Of a stretch of DNA of 64,000 nucleotides, positions 48,044 to 63,412 are shown one piece after another. The notes below the pieces were generated by a model. It ran no database searches and was not told where the DNA came from. It saw nothing but the letters and a program-made list of their open reading frames with translations. Every line of letters begins with the position of its first letter. Position 1 is the stretch's first letter. The DNA is from Anaeropeptidivorans aminofermentans (GTDB lineage: Bacteria; Bacillota; Clostridia; Lachnospirales; UBA5962), in assembly GCF_940670685.1 (NCBI RefSeq), contig NZ_OW711693.1:3596001-3660000 (forward strand), given 5' to 3'. A program made the translations under genes and the position numbers.

Positions 48044-49351
48044 TTATGATGCAAAAATAGTCTGCTCGGTAATAGGCGTCTGTAAAGCTTCAAGGGCCTT
48101 GAGAACCAAGTTTTTACGAAGCTTATACTGATTTTCGTCAGATAATTTTGGGTCGCCTAAGGGATGGGGTATACCGATACCGGGAATAATTCTGTTTGCG
48201 CCGATGGTTTTTGATATAGGCGTAACTGTGGCAATGTGTACAACAGGGATTCCTGCTCTTTCAATTTCTTTAACAATCGTTGCGCCGCAACGAGTACAGG
48301 TGCCTCAGGTGGAGGTGAGAATAACTGCGCCAACTTTATCTTCCAAAAGCTTTTTCGCAATATCTTCTCCGAATCTTTTGGCATTGCCTGTTGATGTTCC
48401 GGTTCCTGTTGTGGTCATGAAATAGTCGGCTAATTCACCAATTACATTTTCTTTTTCAAGCTCTCTTAAAGCATCAAGAGGCACTACAAGATTCGGGTCT
48501 TCAAGAACGAATTGCCTGTCATAACCGCCGTGAACGCTTGTAAAATCGTCTTTACTCATGCGCTCCATGCCGGCTATGCTGTATATGCCGTATTTGCTTG
48601 CAGAGGAAGACTCAATATGGTCGGGATTACCCACAGGAACAATACCCCCTGAGGTAACAATGGCAATTTTTGTATGGGCCATATCCGTTACCGGAGAAAC
48701 AGGCTCTACTCTATCTATTTTAGGAAGCGGATATTCCGTCACAGGGTTATTTCCTGCGACCTTTTGAAGAAGCATTTCCACGGCACGTTCGCTGCCGCGT
48801 TTTTCATGGAAATAATTTACCCTGATGCCTCTTTCAAAATAATCTTCTTCCGAAGGGCCTAAGATTTCCTCATTATTTAAAAGCTTCTTTGCAAATTTTA
48901 TCATAGAAGGAACTGCTTTACGCATACCCGTTGCAGAATTATTTGTTTTAAGGATATACATATCCTTTCTAAAGGCATCCACACCGGGATTTTCTTCATA
49001 CATGGCTGTAAAAGCAGGAATGCCTAAATTATCCTGAACGGCCTTTACAATGCTTCCGCAGGCAAATCCATAGCGTCCTGCGTTAAATGCAGGGCCTGCG
49101 ATAAAAATATCCGCGTTTGCTTCTTTTACCCATGAAAGCAGCTGACCTACAGCCTGCTCTGTATTTTCTCCGAAATAGTTGTCTCCGCAGATAAGTGTTG
49201 CAACGATTTCTACGTCGTCACCGAAGGCCGCCTGTAAAGCCATACCGGGGCCTACAACGCCTTCTCTTTTTTCAGGCGGAATATGCGCCATTTCCTCTCC
49301 GCCGATTCCGGCAAAGAAGTTATTTATATAATGTACTACACGTTTTTTCAT
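48044..49351 (-). CDS. grdB: Selenoprotein B of the glycine/sarcosine/betaine reductase family
   Basis: The full product is 435 residues with selenocysteine at position 349. The frame is open from ATG at 49351 to a UGA at 48305-48307 and continues with the family's conserved end (GTCTRCGATIVKEIERAGIP ... GDPKLSDENQYKLRKNL) to TAA at 48044-48046. Reading UGA as stop would remove the catalytic site TSTUGTCTRC. GrdB binds the amino acid substrate together with GrdE, and the selenol attacks it to give carboxymethyl-selenocysteine on protein A. AGGAAGGGGGAG precedes the ATG; grdE lies 15 nt upstream. Whether the substrate is glycine, sarcosine or betaine (GrdB, GrdF or GrdH) cannot be decided here. 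Confidence 0.93.
48278..48307 (-). promoter_or_regulatory. UGA selenocysteine codon and candidate SECIS hairpin
   Basis: The UGA occupies 48305-48307 (minus strand). Twelve nt after it begins a perfect 6-bp stem, CGTTGC-GGC-GCAACG (48278-48292), in the place where bacterial SECIS elements recruit SelB. Confidence 0.7.
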
Positions 49352-54098: not shown

Positions 54099-54698
54099 CT
54101 ACTCTATCCCTATTTTTTCCTTAAAATTCTCATAGCTATTGGCCCAGTTAAAGCAAACCCTATCTTTTGTTGCTTCCGATACAGCCTTAAAATGAAGGGT
54201 TCCGCATTTAATTTTAAGCTTTTCAACATCGGTTAAGTCTTTCCACTCTTTTTCAAATTTAGTTTCTGTTATAAAATAAAGCTTCGTATCTCCTTCCCCT
54301 TCTTTATAGACAATTGCCCAGTCAGGAGAATAGTTTCCATAGGGAGTATCAATGACAAAGCCGCCCTTTTTTATTTTCGTAAAAAGTACTACATTGGGGT
54401 CTTCATCTAAGCTCTTTGCAAAATCATATTCCCCTTCAGAGTCCGCTTTGTAATACTGATAAATGCCGCGGCCTTCGGACTCTTTTGTTTCGTATACCTT
54501 TTTCTCTTTTTTAAGCATTTCCTCGTCAATGGTGTCTGCTTCAAAGATTACCTTATCGTCAAACTCATAGCCTTTTATAATCTCATAGGAATAAATCGCC
54601 TCTGCCTTTGCTTCATTAAGCTTATAATGAATGGTACGAGTGGCGATACAGCACTTTTTCAGAAAACCCAGTAAAATCAATGGTTTACGGGTAGTCAA
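54099..54698 (-). pseudogene. C-terminal fragment of a type III restriction (Res) subunit
   Basis: This 199-residue fragment carries the nuclease end of Res proteins: DTPYGNYSPDWAIVY, then YFITETKFEKEWKDLTDVEK and KIKCGTLHFKAVS. The D-x(n)-E-x-K arrangement (PDWAI ... ETKFE) is the PD-(D/E)XK site. A complete Res is about 900-1000 residues with an N-terminal helicase, and that part is absent. The frame runs out where the GC-rich conjugative element starts, so insertion or an associated deletion probably cut the gene. The first 15-20 residues (MTTRKPLILLGF) are likely not original. Confidence 0.8.
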
Positions 54699-55716: not shown

Positions 55717-56205
55717 TTGTTACATGAGGAAGTCAACCGCGAGAGCTTACAGCTTGGGGCAAAAATCGGCAAGCTAACCGCCGAGGAAATCAAAAAAGCC
55801 CTTGATAAGCTGCTTGCACAGCTAACCGAGCTAAAGAAAAACGGCCAGCAGCTACCTACCGTCGTACACGGCAAGCAGAGCCTAAAGGAGTTATCAGCCC
55901 AAAATACCGGGCTTTCCAGTATGGAGCTAAAAGACCCGAACTTGCGGCAGATTAACCGGGAAATGAAAAAAGCCGGTATTGACTTTTCGCCGGTAAAAAC
56001 CGGCAAGGGTGAATACCTTTTGTTTTTCAAAGGCCGCGACGCGGACGCTATGACCCATGCTTTCAACCAGTACACAAAGAAGCTCGTCAAACAAGCCGAA
56101 AAACCGTCTATCCGCAAGGTGCTATCCGACTTCAAGGAAAAGGCGGCGGCCATGAACGCGCAACGCGCCGTTACGAAAAATAAGGATAAGGGGATTGAGC
56201 TATGA
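55717..56205 (+). CDS. PcfB/DUF3801 conjugation protein
   Basis: The protein of about 162 residues starts with TTG at 55717 behind AAAGGAGG. It has LTAEEIKKALDKLLAQLTEL, IDFSPVKTGKGEYLLFFKGR and DADAMTHAFNQYTKKL, the DUF3801 pattern. PcfB-like proteins help relaxosome assembly with the coupling protein. It overlaps virD4 by 4 nt (ATGA). Confidence 0.85.
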   Translation: MLHEEVNRESLQLGAKIGKLTAEEIKKALDKLLAQLTELKKNGQQLPTVVHGKQSLKELSAQNTGLSSMELKDPNLRQINREMKKAGIDFSPVKTGKGEYLLFFKGRDADAMTHAFNQYTKKLVKQAEKPSIRKVLSDFKEKAAAMNAQRAVTKNKDKGIEL

Positions 56206-58341
56206 AGAATATCGACGCAAAAAAGCTGATTATCAAGGCTTTGCCCTTTGTCCTGTTTTTCTATCTGTTCGATAAGGCCGGTCAAGCGTTCCGGCTAGCG
56301 CAAGGCGCAGATTTAAGCGGCAAAATCCTGAATATCGGCGGCGGCTTTTCCGCAGCCTTTGAAATGCCCTTGCCGAGCTTCCATGTTCAGGATATGCTTG
56401 TCGGCATTGTGGGCGCGGCACTTATCGCCCTTGCGCTGCAAGTGAAGCGGTCAAACGCGAAGAAATACCGCAAAGGCGTTGAGTACGGCAGCGCACGTTG
56501 GGGAACGGCGCAGGACTGGAAACCCTTTGCTGACCCGGTTTTTGATAACAATATCCTGCTTACCAAAACAGAATGGCACTCCCTGAACGGCAGACACCCG
56601 AACGCAAAGGACGCAAAGAACAAAAATACCCTTGTTATCGGGGGAAGCGGCACAGGTAAATATACACCTGCTTATCCTTAATATGTGAATGGATTTGCGG
56701 GTTTTGCCGTCTTAACCGAAGCCGACAAGTAGGTTGAGATTATCAGCGCGGCAAAAAACTGGGAGGGTTTCACATTCCTAACCAGAGCGAAAGGCTACCC
56801 GCAAAACGGTATCTACGCGCAACGCATAGGGCTTGAACCTGTTTATCAGAATATAACAGCCCCACGAGGCCGCGCCGCCTGTCGGCCTGTCCTGACGGAT
56901 AGGGCGAAAAGATATGCTATACCGGGTATGAAGTAACATACCGCTGAAAATGGGCGAAAGCCCCGGAGGGACGGATAAAAAGCCGTCCGGCAATCACAAA
57001 TAGAAAACCCGTTTCTATGTTAAGCCAAATCTTATGCAAGCCCATTCGTCCTACGTCTGCACGGACCCAAAAGGCACGGTGCTTTTGGAGTGCGGGAAGC
57101 TCTTGCAGCGCACCCATAAAATAAAAATCCTGAACCTTATCAATTTTTCAAAATCCATGCGATATAATCCGTTTGAGTATATCCGCAAGGAACAGGACAT
57201 TTTGAAGCTCGTCAATACGATAATTGTCAACACCAAAGGCGAGGGCGAGAAGTCCGGCGAGGATTTTTGGGTAAAGGCCGAACGGCTCTACTACTGCGCC
57301 CTTATTGGCTACATCTGGTATGAAGCCCCGGACGAGGAAAAAAACTTTTTGGCGCTTTTGGATATGATAAATGCGTCCGAAGCCCGCGAGGACGACGAGG
57401 ATTTCAAAAATCCTGTTGACCTTATGTTTGACCGGCTGGCAGAAAAAGACCCGGAGCATTTTGCTGTCAAACAGTACGCGAAGTATAAATTAGCCGCAGG
57501 AAAGACGGCAAAATCAATCCTTATCAGTTGCGGAGCGCGGCTTGCACCCTTTGACATACGAGAACTCCGCGACTTGCTGGAATATGATGAATTGGAGCTT
57601 GATACGTTGGGCGACACCAAAACCGCCCTTTTTGTTATCATCAGCGACACCGATGACACATTTAATTTCGTCGCCGCCATGATGTATACGCAGATGTTTA
57701 ACCAGCTTTGCGACAAGGCCGACGACGTATACGGCGGGCGGCTGCCCGTTCATGTTCGGTGCATTTTAGACGAGTTTGCGAATATCGGCAAAATCCCTAA
57801 GTTTGAAAAATTGATTGCTACGATACGAAGCCGTGAAATATCGGCTTCTATTATTTTGCAATCACTTTCACAGTTAAAGGCGATTTACAAGGACGATGCA
57901 GATACCATCATGGATTGCTGTTCGACAACCCTTTTCCTGGGCGGCAAATCTAAAACCACCCTGAAAGAGATTTCGGAACTTTTAGGCAAGGAAACAATCG
58001 ACTTACTGAACACTTCCGAGAACCGGGGACAATCACAGTCCTACGGCCTGAACTACCAAAAAACAGGAAAGGAGTTGATGAGCCTATCAGAAATAGCGGT
58101 CATGCCGGGCGGCAAGTGCATTTTGCAGCTTCAAGGATTGTACCCGTTTTACAGCGACAAGTACGATATAACGAAGCACCCGAAGTACAAACACCTGTCC
58201 GACCATGACAAGAAAAATACCTTTGACCCTGAAAAGTATCTGTCCCGTTTGCGGCGCAGCCCGGCAGTATTCAAGCCGGACGACGTTTTTACCGTCGTGG
58301 ATGTTGGAGCAGATACCCCCACCGGCGCAGTCGTCCAGTAA
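56202..58341 (+). CDS. virD4: VirD4/TraG-type coupling protein, split by a group I intron
   Basis: Two coding exons, 56202-56657 and 57004-58341, join to encode 597 residues. Exon 1 has two membrane segments (about residues 8-30 and 65-85) and ends IGGSGTG; exon 2 begins KTRFYVKPNLMQAHSSYV, so the join rebuilds a Walker A GGSGTGKT. Later motifs include VRCILDEFANIGKIPKFEKL (Walker B) and EISASIILQSLSQLKAIYK. The protein couples the relaxosome to the channel. Unspliced RNA gives a 160-residue truncation (KYTPAYP then TAA at 56679). A short ORF beginning at the ATG at 57034 lacks Walker A and should not be functional. Confidence 0.9.
56658..57003 (+). ncRNA. Group I intron in virD4 Walker A (346 nt)
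   Basis: The insertion lies exactly between GGT and AAA in the Walker A codons; exon 1 ends in U and the intron ends in G. Stems: P3 GCGCGGC (56746-56752) with GCCGCGC (56869-56875); P4 CTGG / CCAG; P7 strand GCATAG (56824) with GCTATA; a stem after P7 GGGCT / AGCCC (56829, 56858); P8 CCTGTCC / GGATAGG; J8/7 AAAAGATAT; a 3' hairpin GGGCGAAAGCCC with a GNRA loop (56952) and GGACGG / CCGTCC (56969, 56983). A possible P1, CAGGT / ACCTG (56653, 56666), would put A rather than the usual G opposite the splice-site U, so P1 is unsettled. No homing endonuclease. Confidence 0.82.
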
Positions 58342-58390
58342 TGGGCGACTGTTTTGCTATAAGGGAGGTGATGAACGAAAATTGAATACC

Positions 58391-58436
58391 CGCGCCCGCC
58401 ATTTAGCAATTCCCCATAAACGGCGGGCGCATTTTT
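58391..58436 (+). terminator. Hairpin after virD4
   Basis: CGCGCCCGCC / GGCGGGCGC with a loop of about 20 nt and ATTTTTTG; it may reduce read-through into the downstream genes. Confidence 0.7.
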
Positions 58437-58492
58437 TGTTTCCGGGGAATGAGATACTCCACTATTACAATTTTGAAAGTGAGGAAAACATA

Positions 58493-58708
58493 ATGGCATT
58501 TTTTAATTCAGCGGTTGACGTATTGCAGACCCTTGTTATCGCTTTGGGGGCCGGTTTAGGGATTTGGGGCATTATTAACCTACTTGAGGGCTATGGTTCC
58601 GATAACCCGGCAAGCAAGTCACAGGGCATGAAGCAGCTCATGGCGGGCGGCGGTGTTGCATTGATTGGCCTGTTGCTTGTGCCGCAGCTTTCCGGCCTGT
58701 TCGGTTAA
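58493..58708 (+). CDS. Maff2-family membrane protein
   Basis: This 71-residue protein, MAFFNSAVDVLQTLVIALGA, has two hydrophobic segments and the loop GYGSDNPASKSQGMKQLMAG, the signature of Maff2 proteins that follow VirD4 in Tn1549-type elements. It is probably a VirB2-like or small channel component. The ATG follows GTGAGG. It ends 10 nt before the VirB6-like gene. Confidence 0.88.
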   Translation: MAFFNSAVDVLQTLVIALGAGLGIWGIINLLEGYGSDNPASKSQGMKQLMAGGGVALIGLLLVPQLSGLFG

Positions 58709-58718
58709 GAGGTAGTCT

Positions 58719-59588
58719 ATGCAGAGCATATTTGACGCAATTACCGAATGGATAAAAGAGCTTCTAATTGGCGCGATTGAGGGTAATCTGTCAAATATGT
58801 TCGGGGACGTAAACGACAAGGTAGGCACGATAGCTGCTGAGGTAGGCGCAACCCCGCAAGCGTGGAACAGTAACATTTTCAGTATGATACAGACCTTATC
58901 TGAAACGGTTATTATCCCGATTGCGGGGCTTATCATTACCTATGTGCTATGCGTGGAGCTTATCGGTATGGTTACGGAGCGAAACAATCTGCACGACGTT
59001 GACACATGGCTATTTTTTAAGTGGTTTTTTAAGGCGTGGGTGGCGGTTTTTATCGTCACTCACACCTTTGATATTACAATGGCGGCGTTTGATATGGGGC
59101 AACACATTGTATCAGGCGCGGCGGGCGTAATAAGCGGCAGCACAAGCATAAATGTTGACGCGACCATTGCAGCCATGCGAAGCGGCCTTGAAGCTATGGA
59201 AATCCCCGAACTGCTACTTTTGACAGTAGAAACTATGTTAATCAGCTTTTGTATGAAAATCATGGCGATATTGATTACCGTCATTGTGTACGGGCGCATG
59301 ATTGAGATTTACCTATATTGTAGCGTTGCCCCCGTCCCCTTTGCCACTATGACAAATCGGGAGTGGGGACAAATCGGAACAGGCTATCTGAAAGGCCTGT
59401 TTGCGCTGGCCTTTCAAGGATTTTTTATACTTGTTTGCGTCGGCATTTATGCCGTACTTGTGAATGACATGATAATTGCGGACGACATACACAGCGCAAT
59501 ATTTTCCATTGCCGCATATACCGTCATTCTCTGTTTCAGCCTGTTCAAAACCGGCTCATTGTCAAAATCTATCTTTGGGGCGCATTAA
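58719..59588 (+). CDS. VirB6/TrbL-like conjugal transfer membrane protein
   Basis: This 289-residue protein has six or so hydrophobic segments and the pattern AWNSNIFSMIQTLSETVIIP, ITYVLCVELIGMVTERNNLH and VAPVPFATMTNREWGQIGTG, typical of the CD0411/VirB6-like proteins of clostridial ICEs. It likely forms part of the inner-membrane channel. It is directly downstream of the Maff2 gene. Confidence 0.85.
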   Translation: MQSIFDAITEWIKELLIGAIEGNLSNMFGDVNDKVGTIAAEVGATPQAWNSNIFSMIQTLSETVIIPIAGLIITYVLCVELIGMVTERNNLHDVDTWLFFKWFFKAWVAVFIVTHTFDITMAAFDMGQHIVSGAAGVISGSTSINVDATIAAMRSGLEAMEIPELLLLTVETMLISFCMKIMAILITVIVYGRMIEIYLYCSVAPVPFATMTNREWGQIGTGYLKGLFALAFQGFFILVCVGIYAVLVNDMIIADDIHSAIFSIAAYTVILCFSLFKTGSLSKSIFGAH

Positions 59589-59601
59589 GGGAGGGCGCAG
59601 T

Positions 59602-59898
59602 ATGGACATAACGAAAGAAACCCGCCGCGAGAGCTACGGCGCAGCGCAGCAGGAAGCAGCCGCACGGCGGCGCGTTATCCTTGAAATCCTGACCGAGCGT
59701 GGGAAGCTTACGGCGCGTGAGGTTGCCGCCGAGCTTCACCAGCGCGGCATTACTCCGACAGACGAGCGCAATTATTCTGCGCCCCGACTTACCGAACTGA
59801 AAGCAGCCGGGCAAATCAAAGTGACCGGCAAAAAGATATGTGACCGTACAGGCCGCAGCGTTGCGGTTTGGGCGGTCAAAAAGGAGGTATCAAAGTAA
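59602..59898 (+). CDS. Winged-helix protein of the ICE
   Basis: This 98-residue protein begins MDITKETRRESYGAAQQEAA and has ILEILTERGKLTAREVAAEL, PRLTELKAAGQIKVTGKKIC and CDRTGRSVAVWAV, a winged helix-turn-helix. It may regulate transfer genes. ATG at 59602 behind GGGAGGG. It ends directly before the PrgI ATG. Confidence 0.8.
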   Translation: MDITKETRRESYGAAQQEAAARRRVILEILTERGKLTAREVAAELHQRGITPTDERNYSAPRLTELKAAGQIKVTGKKICDRTGRSVAVWAVKKEVSK

Positions 59899-60309
59899 AT
59901 GGCCTATGTGCCTATTCCAAAAGACCTTACCAAAGTAAAAACAAAGTTTGCGCTTGGGCTTACCAAACGGCAACTAATATGTTTCGGCGCAGCGGCGGCG
60001 GTAGGCTTGCCGCTGTTTTTCGTTTTACGGGGCGTTATCGCGTCCAGCGCGGCGGCTATGGTTATGGTTATCGTCATGTTGCCGTTTTTCCTGCTTGCCA
60101 TGTACGAAAAGCACGGGCGACCCCTTGAAAAAGTGGTGCAGGATATTATCGAAACAAAATCTGTTCGCCCAAAGGTGCGCCCCTATCAGACAGATAACCT
60201 ATACGCCGCCACAGCGCGGCAAGCAAATCTATACAAGGAGGTAAAAGCGATTGCAACAGGTAAAAAAGCAGCCCGCAGGGGCAACCCGGAAGCTGACCGC
60301 CGCCGATAA
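59899..60309 (+). CDS. PrgI-family conjugation protein
   Basis: This 136-residue protein begins MAYVPIPKDLTKVKTKFALG, has two hydrophobic segments (about residues 28-65) and continues ERPLEKVVQDIIETKSVRPK-like sequence, the PrgI (VirB3-like) pattern. It overlaps the virB4 start by about 59 nt, as usual for this pair. AAGGAGG precedes the ATG. Confidence 0.87.
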   Translation: MAYVPIPKDLTKVKTKFALGLTKRQLICFGAAAAVGLPLFFVLRGVIASSAAAMVMVIVMLPFFLLAMYEKHGRPLEKVVQDIIETKSVRPKVRPYQTDNLYAATARQANLYKEVKAIATGKKAARRGNPEADRRR

Positions 60310-63300
60310 GCGGCAGATTAACAATCTTATCCGCAGGGCAAAGGGCGACGGCAAACCCCGGACGGCGCAACAGTCTATCCCCTACCTTGCCATGTACCCG
60401 GACGGTCTTTGCCGGGTGACGGATAAGGTTTTCAGCAAAAGCATTGAGTTTTCCGACATAAGCTATCAACTTGCCGGAAACGACGATAAGACCGCCACCT
60501 TTGAAAACCTTTGCGACTTCTACAACTACTTTGACAGCAGCATTTCCGCGCAATTCTCTTTCGTCAACCTGTACGGGAACCCGGAGGACTACCGCAAGGT
60601 GATAGACATACCGCCGCAGGGTGATGATCTTGACGACGTTCGCAGCGAGTATGCCGGGATACTTAGGGACAACAGCGAAAAGGGCGCAAACGAGCTTGTC
60701 AAGCGCAAATATCTTTCCTTTTCCATAGAGAACGACAATCCACAAGCGGCGAAAGCCCGCTTGGAGCGTATCGAAACCGACATACACGGGCATTTCAAGA
60801 CGATAGGCTCAAAAGCCGCTACCCTTTCCGGGCATGACCGGCTGAAAAGCCTGTTTGACATTTTCCACCCGGACGGCGCGGAGCGTTTCTCCTTTGATTG
60901 GGGCTGGCTACCTAAAACCGGCCTTTCCACAAAAGACTTTATCGCCCCAACTGCCTTTACCTTTGGCGATAGCCGGATATTCCGCGTGGGAAACAAAATT
61001 GGCGCGGCTTCATTCCTGCAAATCCTTGCCCCAGAACTTAACGACCGGCTCCTTGCGGATTTTCTTGACTTGGAAAGCAGCGTGATTGTGACGCTGCATA
61101 TCCGCAGTATAGACCAGACCGAAGCTATCAAAATGGTAAAGCGCAAGATTACCGACCTTGACAGCGCGAAAATCAATGAGCAGAAAAAGGCCGTGCGTTC
61201 AGGGTATGACATGGACATTCTACCGTCCGACCTTGCCACCTATGGCGGAGAAGCAAAAAACCTGTTGCGCGACTTGCAGAGCAGGAATGAAAGAATGTTT
61301 TTGACGACGTTTCTTGTCATAAACCTTGCCGACACAAAGGAAGTGCTTGAAAACAACGTCTTTGCGGCGGCGGGTATCGCACAGAAACACAACTGCGCCC
61401 TGTATCGGCTGGACAATCAGCAGGAAAAAGCCCTTATGAGCAGCTTGCCGCTTGGCATGAACCAAATCCCCATTGAAAGGGGCTTGACGACTTCCAGCAC
61501 GGCAATTTTCGTCCCGTTCACCACCGGCGAACTTTTCCAGAGCGGCGAAGCCCTGTACTATGGGCGCAATGCCCTGTCTGGCAATATGATTATGGCAGAC
61601 CGCAAATTGCTAAAGAACCCTAACGGGCTTATCTTGGGAACGCCGGGCTGTTTATGTGGTGAAGTACGCGTCCAGCTTGCGGAGGGCGGGACGGCTTCTT
61701 TTGCTGAACTGCTTGAACGCGGTGCGGAGGAAATCGCGGTCAAGGCCTACGACGAAAAAACCGGGCAGATTGTTGACGCAAAGGCCTTTGACGTTCGCAT
61801 TGCCAAAAAAGCCGATGAGATAAAACAAATTGCCTTTGAGGATGGTTCTATACTGCGCTGTACCGGGAGCCATCTTATTATGGACGACAAAGGGGATTTT
61901 GTTCAAGCGTCGGACGTTTGCGAGGGGCAGCGGTTGAGCGGCGGGCATATTGCCGTTAGGGTATCCTTTTTGAAACTGCCTGAAAAAATCAACGTGTACG
62001 ATATGACCGTCCCGAAATACTTTAACTTTGTTCTGGAAAACGGCTTGATTATTCACAACAGCGGCAAGAGCTTTTCAGCGAAACGTGAGATTACAAACGC
62101 CTTTTTGATTACCACGGACGATATTTTAATTTGTGACCCGGAAGCAGAATACGCCCCCCTTGTGGAACGGTTGAAAGGGCAAGTGATACGCATATCGCCG
62201 CAGAGCCGCCAATATGTGAACCCTATGGATATAAACCCCGATTACAGCGACGAGGACAACCCGGTTGCCCTGAAATCTGACTTTATCCTGTCCATTTGTG
62301 AGGTTATCGCCGGAGGGCGGGACGGCTTGCAGCCCATTGAAAAGTCTGTGATTGACAAGGCGGTACGGGACGTTTACCGGGTGTACCTTGCTGACCCCGA
62401 CCCGGCGCGTATGCCCATTTTGGAAGATTTGTATAATGCGCTTCTGGTGCAGGACAGCCCCGACGCGAAGCACGTTGCCGCCGCCCTTGAAATATATGTG
62501 CATGGCAGCTTGAACGTCTTTAACCACAGGACAAATGTAAATGTTGACAACCGGCTTGTGTGCTTTGACATTAAAGAGTTAGGCAAACAGTTGAAAACTT
62601 TGGGCATGTTGGTTATTCAAGACCAGATTTGGAACCGCGTCACTGTCAACCGGGCGCAGAAAAAAGCCACGCGTTACTATTGCGACGAATTTCATCTACT
62701 TCTGAAAGGCGAATTAGGGGCTTGGAGTGTCGAGATTTGGAAGCGTTTCAGAAAATGGGGAGGTAGAAGAATAAGCATTGCTATTTTGCATAAATGTTTA
62801 TTTGTTGCCGTCTTGATTGAAGCCGACAAGTAAAATCAAGATTATAAATGCGAAAGAAAACGGGAAAGGTTTTGCAATCCTAATCCGAGTGGAAGTCTAT
62901 TTGTAAAAGGATAGACACACGCAACGCATAGCGGTTGACCCTTTGCTTGGAATAGCAAAGAATATAATACCGCCACGAGTTCGCATTATCGGTCGGCACA
63001 GCTAAATTAGTTGTGGTAAAAAGATATGCTATGCTGAATGTGAATTGACACATTGATGAAAATGGGCGAAAGCCCCAGAGATACGCATAAAAAGGCGTAT
63101 GTTAATAACAAACAGATACCCACTGGCATAACGCAAAATATCAAAGACCTGTTGGCAAGCGCGGAAATCGAAAATATTTTTGAAAACAGCGATTTTCTAT
63201 ATCTTCTCAATCAGGCAGCGGGCGACCGTGAAATCCTTGCGGAAAAGCTGCACATATCGCCCAAACAGGCAAAGTACATTACCAATTCCGAAGCTGGCGA

Positions 63301-63412
63301 GGGGCTTATTATCTACGGCAGCGTGATACTGCCCTTTATCGACCAATTCCCCGCGAATACAAAGCTATACGAGATTATGACGACCCGCCCGCTGGAAGCG
63401 GCGGGAGCTTGA
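60251..63412 (+). CDS. virB4: VirB4-type conjugation ATPase with intein and group I intron
   Basis: Exon 1 (60251-62764) and exon 2 (63116-63412) join to 936 residues; removing the 137-residue intein leaves about 799, the usual VirB4 length. Walker A reads GTPG, intein, SGKS. Walker B lies in YYCDEFHLLL, and the exon join rebuilds RFRKWGG + IPTGITQN, a conserved stretch with the TQN motif. The N-terminal half includes FSFDWGWLP and GGEAKNLLRDLQSRNERMF. It powers assembly and function of the transfer channel. Start is TTG, 10 nt after AAGGAGG. Unspliced RNA reads RRISIAILHK and stops at 62833, losing the last 98 residues. Confidence 0.9.
61649..62059 (+). other. Mini-intein in the VirB4 Walker A (137 residues)
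   Basis: The domain starts with Cys (CLCGEVRVQLAEGGTASFAE, block A), has block B as GSILRCTGSHLIMDD with the conserved T-x-x-H, and ends VYDMTVPKYFNF ... ENGLIIHN with His-Asn, followed by Ser as +1 residue. Flanking extein NPNGLILGTPG joins SGKSFSAKREI to give a normal P-loop. The endonuclease blocks C-E are absent, so it can splice but not home on its own. It covers VirB4 residues 467-603. Confidence 0.92.
62765..63115 (+). ncRNA. Group I intron in virB4 (351 nt)
   Basis: Exon 1 ends GGAGGT and exon 2 begins ATACCC; the intron ends CAAACAG, again U before and G at the end. Stems: P2-like CTTGATT / AATCAAG (about 62811-62839); P3 AATGCGAA (62847) with TTCGCATT (62980); P6 GTCTAT / ATAGAC; P7 GCATAGC with GCTATGC (62926, 63028); stem after P7 GCGGT / ACCGC (62931, 62969); P8 CACAGCT / AGTTGTG; GGGCGAAAGCCC (63064); ATACGC / GCGTAT (63081, 63095). 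These match the virD4 intron by position with compensatory base changes. I could not find a convincing P1/IGS. No ORF inside. Confidence 0.82.

Follow-up and report, generated by a model that had tools for sequence, protein, structure and literature searches.

The window, which is the whole 64,000-nt stretch of DNA analysed here (positions 3596001-3660000 of the single 3.757-Mb contig of Anaeropeptidivorans aminofermentans), ends in the transfer region of an integrative and conjugative element (ICE) whose two conjugation ATPase genes, virD4 and virB4, are interrupted three times. This raises the question of what the insertions are, whether the two proteins could still be made and how the insertions came to lie there. 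We consider it very probable that the three are selfish elements predicted to remove themselves, two being group IA introns that would act at the RNA level and the third a mini-intein that would act at the protein level.

Three insertions in virD4 and virB4

The virD4 gene with its insertion spans window positions 56202-58341 and virB4 with its two insertions spans 60251-63412, both on the + strand, as are all of their parts. The genes were identified by tblastn to annotated records of the VirD4-like CD1115 and VirB4-like CD1110 families and, for the second virD4 exon, by Pfam. Exon 1 of virD4 (56202-56657), which has no Pfam match of its own, ends in GGSGTG at a GGT codon. It is followed by the 346-nt intron 1 (56658-57003), which divides the Walker A motif as GTG^KT (the caret marks the point of insertion), and by exon 2 (57004-58341), which begins with KTRFYVKPNLMQ and matches T4SS-DNA_transf (6.8e-50) and TraG-D_C (4.7e-38). 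In virB4, part A (60251-61648) ends in LGTPG of Walker A, where the 137-aa mini-intein (61649-62059) splits GTPG^SGKS. Part B (62060-62764) runs from the rest of Walker A to Walker B and ends in RKWGG, also at a GGT codon; here the 351-nt intron 2 (62765-63115) interrupts WGG^IPTG ahead of part C (63116-63412), which begins with IPTGITQN. None of the three virB4 parts has a Pfam match, and the names Walker A, Walker B and TQN are those that we take these motifs to carry.

VirB4 was compared across the 30 best-scoring loci (window included) of a search that matched 77 of 391 genomes. Outside the window, 27 of the 29 loci have an unbroken WGG-I-PTG-I-TQN string, the exceptions being L077, which ends with its contig, and L084, which carries an intron. 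The junction of parts A and B is contiguous in 26 of the 30 loci and is interrupted in the other four by an intein only, and the VirD4 Walker A motif is uninterrupted in L014. A first-pass annotation, made from the letters of the window alone, had given all three insertions these coordinates and sizes, which hold to the nucleotide on alignment, and had placed two of them within Walker A motifs, positions that are likewise supported. It had further proposed that removal restores each protein exactly and that related ICEs might hold alleles free of the intron or the intein at the same codons. Such alleles were found, and these independent uninterrupted sequences bear out the exact restoration.

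Structure of the candidate group IA introns

Sequence and predicted structure place the two RNA insertions among the group IA introns, and neither contains an open reading frame (ORF) for an endonuclease. Intron 1 is supported by its boundaries, by covariation and by a match to a covariance model (R1), and intron 2 by its boundaries, by covariation and by the empty alleles. RNAalifold analysis of 13 cores (ten ICE introns together with AR9, pCd11 and phiR1-37) gave 38 pairs, 27 of which show at least one double change; these pairings were laid out as P3, P4, P5, P6, P7.1, P7.2 and P8, the helix names being our own assignment. Extending this to P2, P7 and the P9 region gave, on 11 full introns, a 74-pair structure with 97.0% of its cells paired, a percentage favoured by its derivation from the same alignment, compared to a mean of 81.5% in shuffled controls and 32-40% in slid controls. 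Changes on both sides are seen in 49 pairs (shuffled mean 29.1) and the covariation score is 0.573 (shuffled 0.248). None of 500 shuffles attained the percentage paired, the number of double changes or the covariation score of the real introns; for further pair types, the observed value was reached by three of 500. In intron 1, the 5' strand of P7 is GCATA (56824-56828) and the 3' strand is TATGC (56913-56917). P7 is invariant in all 11 introns, partly because the search pattern fixed it, and it therefore contributes no covariation. The P4-P6 and P3-P8 domains of a group I core are present with the P7/P3 pseudoknot. Between P7 and P3 lie the extra helices P7.1 and P7.2 (helices 7 and 8 of the 74-pair structure), which mark subgroup IA. 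The accessible text of PMC3984707 names P7.1 and P7.2 among class features.

The internal guide GCC, assigned by position and P1 pairing, lies at 56706-56708 in intron 1 and at 62807-62809 in intron 2, and would pair with the GGU that ends each upstream exon to form P1 with a U.G pair at the splice site. This pairing was found in 11 of 12 minimum-energy folds, compared to 462 of 2400 folds of middle-shuffled sequences, and all 17 bounded introns end in a 3'-terminal G. After excision, GG(U) would be followed directly by K in the virD4 mRNA and by I in the virB4 mRNA. The VirB4 and VirD4 introns measured are 334-358 nt long, and the G+C of the ICE introns spans 0.38 to 0.58. The longest closed sense ORF is 17 aa in intron 1, 29 aa in intron 2 and at most 92 aa across the 17 bounded introns, none being of endonuclease length. 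The frame of the 5' exon meets a stop at nt 22 of intron 1 and nt 67 of intron 2, and by nt 67 in all 12 non-redundant ICE introns, as is often expected by chance; an unspliced mRNA would thus yield a truncated protein.

The mini-intein in VirB4

The VirB4 insertion at Walker A begins with Cys1, ends in HN and is followed by Ser at +1, and it matches PF14890 above the cut-off (3e-11). No homing endonuclease domain was matched by Pfam in the 137 aa, and with this length and a splicing domain match alone it is read as a mini-intein, which would leave the VirB4 precursor and rejoin GTPG to SGKS. Its structural model (predicted local distance difference test score, pLDDT, 94.6) has a predicted HINT fold. 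In a structure search the model matched the NpuDnaB intein at 4.4e-9 and also NpuDnaE, and inteins lead the 61 PDB matches obtained at E <= 0.001.

Intein matches were obtained in five of the 391 genomes, that of A. aminofermentans included. The same 137-aa element occupies the same VirB4 position in genomes G090 (64%), G074 and G338 (41% each), and G272 gave weak matches only. Cys1, T72 and H75 (TxxH), H136, N137 and Ser+1 are invariant in all four alleles, among which those of G074 and G338 look identical. An intein-spanning query reached at least 80% coverage in none of the 87 plasmid records with a match. In G090 (locus L138, contig G090:C6) a single transfer region holds both an intron in VirD4 and, at a distance of ~17 kb, the intein in VirB4.

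Two side observations concern these genomes. The weak matches of G272 include six intein-like ones within ~41 kb (G272:C1:1852456-1893474), and G090 carries a Maff2-like gene split by ~11 kb, which we interpret as encoding a tet-type GTPase, a relaxase and a serine recombinase.

Distribution of the introns and their GGT target

The matches of intron 2 in a distant blastn search were 11 records from phages and two from C. difficile plasmids. Among the records examined, the AR9 match sits in gyrA, which is annotated as a three-piece join, and those in PBS1, phiR1-37 and BpSp are placed either immediately ahead of a gyrase A frame or between two of them. A copy in a staphylococcal phage is flanked by tail-protein frames, and a C. 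difficile plasmid copy precedes a tape-measure frame. The introns belong to a family with further members in gyrA and other genes of phages. A core-pattern scan of 84,980 species (one genome each) and of viral sequences identified 22 and 25 loci, respectively; as the pattern fixes P7, the scan samples one sub-family. VirB4 or VirD4 harbors 17 of the 22 loci: three at WGG^IPTG, four at the VirD4 Walker A and ten at IPTG^ITQN, among them L012, whose locus does not reach the 5' exon. By eye, the other five comprise three gyrA-like loci with an upstream ORF, one terminase-like locus and one of no assigned kind. The upstream ORF of L015 reached 21.8 bits against LAGLIDADG_3, slightly short of the cut-off of 22.5.

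Model R1 found two copies in the A. aminofermentans genome and matched six of the 391 Clostridia-class genomes, this one included. The five others comprise two VirD4 cases, one VirB4 case and two without an assigned gene, and at least two of the R1-positive genomes seem to coincide with loci of the core-pattern scan. At E up to 1e-4, a single copy was recovered from each of the 17 ICE genomes that bear an intron. Separately, genome G456 (L027) showed eight covariance-model matches, one adjoining a GIY-YIG-like ORF, and in L024 the intron-bearing VirD4 gene is cut further by other sequence, including a serine recombinase-like frame.

The ICE introns occupy three sites, each after a conserved glycine codon, GGT. 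This holds for all 17 bounded introns and likewise for L061 and L019. The boundary search itself required GGT and failed only for L012 and L019, which are truncated at the edge of their loci. Among the 27 intron-free VirB4 alleles, GGT is present in 13 at the WGG site and in 10 at the IPTG site, and is thus common, not universal, at VirB4 sites without an intron. At 11 gyrA loci, the boundary showed the HPHG motif or a variant in six (L034 has a variant) and GGT in four; L040 has an uninterrupted HPHG with GGA and its intron elsewhere, and the 3' boundary was matched in L015 only. The VirB4 genes of L021 (with intron) and L066 (without) are 93.4% identical over 990 bp and differ by a clean insertion.

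Purifying selection on intron-bearing virB4

The ratio of non-synonymous to synonymous substitution rates (dN/dS) was low in all six pairs of VirB4 genes in which both members carry the intron: L021/L031 (0.024), L014/L028 (0.010), L013/L022 (0.028), L013/L032 (0; 49 synonymous and 0 other changes), L020/L029 (0.015) and L020/L011 (0.033). The pairs are not independent, as L013 and L020 were each used twice. L021 and the empty L066 gave 0.028, and the VirD4 pair L016/L030 showed 8 synonymous and 0 other changes. Left out as saturated at synonymous sites were L011/L013 (198 synonymous, 110 non-synonymous) and L016/L018 (139 and 78), and dN/dS is meaningless for L018/L024 because L024 is broken. 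Since the intron-bearing VirB4 genes of these relatives are under strong purifying selection, the protein is presumably made, and for this the introns must come out; we regard this constraint as the strongest argument for splicing.

Spread of the introns

The filled lineages at the WGG site (the window, L021/L031 and L019) share GGA GGT^ATA CCC and are only 66-73% identical over the 600 bases upstream. This haplotype occurs in none of the 27 empty alleles, although L067 has three of the four codons; between L021 and the empty L066, GGA, GGT and CCC differ and ATA is common to both. The shared flank could be exon sequence that moved with the intron in DNA homing or sequence needed by an endonuclease, and the haplotype favours co-conversion. 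The introns probably reach empty alleles by homing at the DNA level with an endonuclease supplied in trans, and reverse splicing is a possible alternative route.

In the intron tree, a single clade set apart from the phage introns unites those of ICEs (approximate likelihood-ratio test 86.8, ultrafast bootstrap 94). Within it, the VirB4 introns of L021 and L019 group with the VirD4 intron of L016 (98.2/100), which suggests movement of introns between the two genes. Topologies were compared on 290 alignment columns, in which G+C varies among the introns and the phage rows were cut by position and not at known ends. The approximately unbiased (AU) test gave p = 0.018 when every site was forced to be a clade; for single sites p was 0.033 (WGG), 0.051 (VirD4) and 0.31 (IPTG), and for the two window introns as sisters it was 0.069. 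The Shimodaira-Hasegawa (SH) test rejected none at 0.05 (0.0509 for all sites). One origin per site is therefore rejected by AU, though not by SH; with the two tests at odds, the case that the WGG site was invaded repeatedly is of moderate strength, and a sister relationship of the two window introns is possible.

Alternative explanations

Several observations weigh against reading the insertions as selfish elements that splice themselves out. P1 comprises three base pairs with the exon only, the L021 intron lacks the GGU:GCC P1 in its minimum-energy fold, and P10 pairing, scored by an eye-rule, amounts to 0-2 bases in most of ten introns. Rfam 15 gave no group I match for the region, either at gathering score or at E up to 1. 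The same was found, at an E of 1, for seven stretches (L003, L059, L064, L060, L105, L119 and L117), which comprise the AR9 gyrA intron, both window introns and four other ICE introns; as the AR9 gyrA intron was missed as well, we take this negative to reflect models that do not cover the family. L021 and L066 have identities of 0.88 and 0.93 beside the site and 0.82-0.98 elsewhere; identity is not lower near the intron and gives no support for co-conversion. Pfam found no cognate endonuclease among the 20 ICE-region proteins scanned, and a genome-wide search, which covered LAGLIDADG_3 and not HNH or GIY-YIG, gave a single sub-threshold match, in a 315-aa frame that is presumably WhiA. Furthermore, all dN/dS values come from relatives and none from the window ICE, and splicing, the mode of spread and the neutrality of the elements are what we infer from sequence.

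These points have to be set against the alternatives. The three insertions might form a conditional lock on conjugation, tuned by a signal, with VirD4 and VirB4 active only after all splicing. Insertions in Walker A would indeed inactivate both motors until removed, the in-frame stops in 12 of 12 non-redundant introns would give truncated protein if unspliced, an intron and an intein recur together in a second ICE (G090), and exapted group I introns exist, as in the cyclic di-GMP case in the accessible text of PMC8987985. However, the elements are patchy, with two of the best 30 VirB4 loci carrying a VirB4 intron and four the intein; site use is not inherited as a set according to the intron tree and AU tests; a VirB4 allele 93% identical lacks the intron; and no Rfam riboswitch family was matched in the region. 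None of the comparisons made here spoke for a transfer switch. We regard such a lock as very unlikely, and it is distinctly improbable that two GGU-guided ribozymes and a Walker A intein gate transfer in series and have been recruited repeatedly by ICE lineages for that role. Death of the genes, with the insertions as unspliced relics in an ICE that no longer transfers, is highly unlikely given the dN/dS of 0.00-0.03 in six intron-bearing VirB4 pairs of relatives, the splice sites, P1 and core that have been kept, and six other ICE ORFs that are open (relaxase, topoisomerase, TrbL, PrgI, NlpC/P60 and recombinase). The further cut in the intron-bearing VirD4 of L024 would fit such decay.

It is extremely unlikely that the insertions are IStrons, in which a group I intron is joined to IS200/IS605 or IS607, or ORF-less remnants of these spread by a transposase. 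According to the accessible text of PMC4227781, the introns of IStrons are of group I (IA2), Clostridia harbor several of these elements, and forms lacking an ORF are known; their targets are given as TTGAT or GG-containing sites not ending in U. The ICE introns instead follow GGT^. Their longest closed sense ORF (92 aa; 17 and 29 aa in the window) is too short for a transposase, and the genome holds just two copies. IStron identity was rejected on the missing transposase-length ORF and the different target. The selfish reading, in which elements converge on conserved codons, had been one of two offered by the first-pass annotation (the other was a conditional switch on transfer), and it fits the presence and absence alleles at 93% identity, the phage relatives, the three GGT sites and the AU rejection of one clade per site, which SH does not share.

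Host element and neighbouring genes

The transfer region at the right end of the window encodes a DUF6017 protein, VirD4, TrbL, PrgI and VirB4, the first four with Pfam matches. Beyond the window, the ICE continues with NlpC/P60, CD1107-like and topoisomerase genes, a YodL/ArdA/ArdC-domain protein, a MobA-type relaxase, an ArsA-type ATPase, whose surrounding genes we read as an arsenic operon, and a serine recombinase. Plasmid relatives found by tblastn carry VirB4-like CD1110 and VirD4-like CD1115 family annotations. With VirD4, TrbL, PrgI, VirB4, CD1107-like protein, relaxase and recombinase all together, the host is a CD1107/CD1110/CD1115-type ICE, a class which we take to be that named Tn1549/CTn-type. 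An RE_endonuc-domain ORF at 54099-54698 (- strand, Pfam) may lie at the left edge of the ICE. Outside the ICE, a SECIS_4 selenocysteine insertion element at 48267-48304 (- strand; 58.4 bits, cut-off 38) lies just downstream of the start of the reverse-strand ORF 48305-49351, a bacterial selenoprotein gene.

Significance and comparison with known systems

These findings point to the two motor ATPases of conjugation, with insertions after three GGT glycine codons, as a habitat for self-splicing elements. Genes of this kind are liable to be annotated as broken VirB4 or VirD4, and as Rfam also misses the ribozyme, working ICEs may be scored as defective. The filled and empty VirB4 alleles, 93% identical, provide a natural system for how introns without an endonuclease move from one mobile element to another, and the ICE also lets one ask whether stacked splicing slows or tunes conjugation. 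The relatives suggest that such insertions are recurrent stowaways of mobile elements and that they target a small number of codons under high conservation. The parts are of known kinds, and for their place and combination we found no description: in our literature search, which covered passages of papers mostly outside subscription, neither group I introns nor inteins were reported from VirB4 or VirD4 of an ICE. The combination, for which the first-pass annotation knew of no described element, stands as a triple, seen in the window only among the genomes examined; it does not stand for the single elements, each of which recurs in other ICEs.

Ll.LtrB, a group II intron that lies in a relaxase gene, encodes a reverse transcriptase and spreads by retrohoming, is likewise a ribozyme in a conjugation gene, but belongs to group II. 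Among the closest known systems are the gyrA introns of the jumbo phages AR9/PBS1, BpSp and phiR1-37, which are of the same family (69.5-76.5% identity over 55-81% of intron 2 by blastn). The GCC guide is common to the ICE introns and AR9, BpSp and phiR1-37, and four bacterial or viral gyrA relatives have GGT at the HPHG boundary, like the GGT of the ICE introns. They differ in host gene, which is gyrA by annotation or position as opposed to VirB4 or VirD4, and gyrA relatives such as L015 have a LAGLIDADG-type ORF upstream of the core that the ICE introns lack. The accessible portions of the AR9 literature mention an intron in another gene and do not mention a splicing test for gyrA. The mini-intein resembles those of NpuDnaB/NpuDnaE type in its predicted fold, Cys1 and HN ends, and differs in sitting in a VirB4 conjugation ATPase and in its identity of at most 25% to the 50 structures listed. 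IStrons such as CdISt1 are likewise group IA ribozymes of Clostridia according to the accessible text of PMC4227781, whereas the ICE introns have no transposase ORF and follow another target rule. Collaborative homing of group I introns, as presented in the accessible text of PMC3984707, likewise involves ORF-less introns at conserved sites, and the shared flank haplotype at the WGG site adds to this likeness, with the endonuclease acting in trans being putative here.

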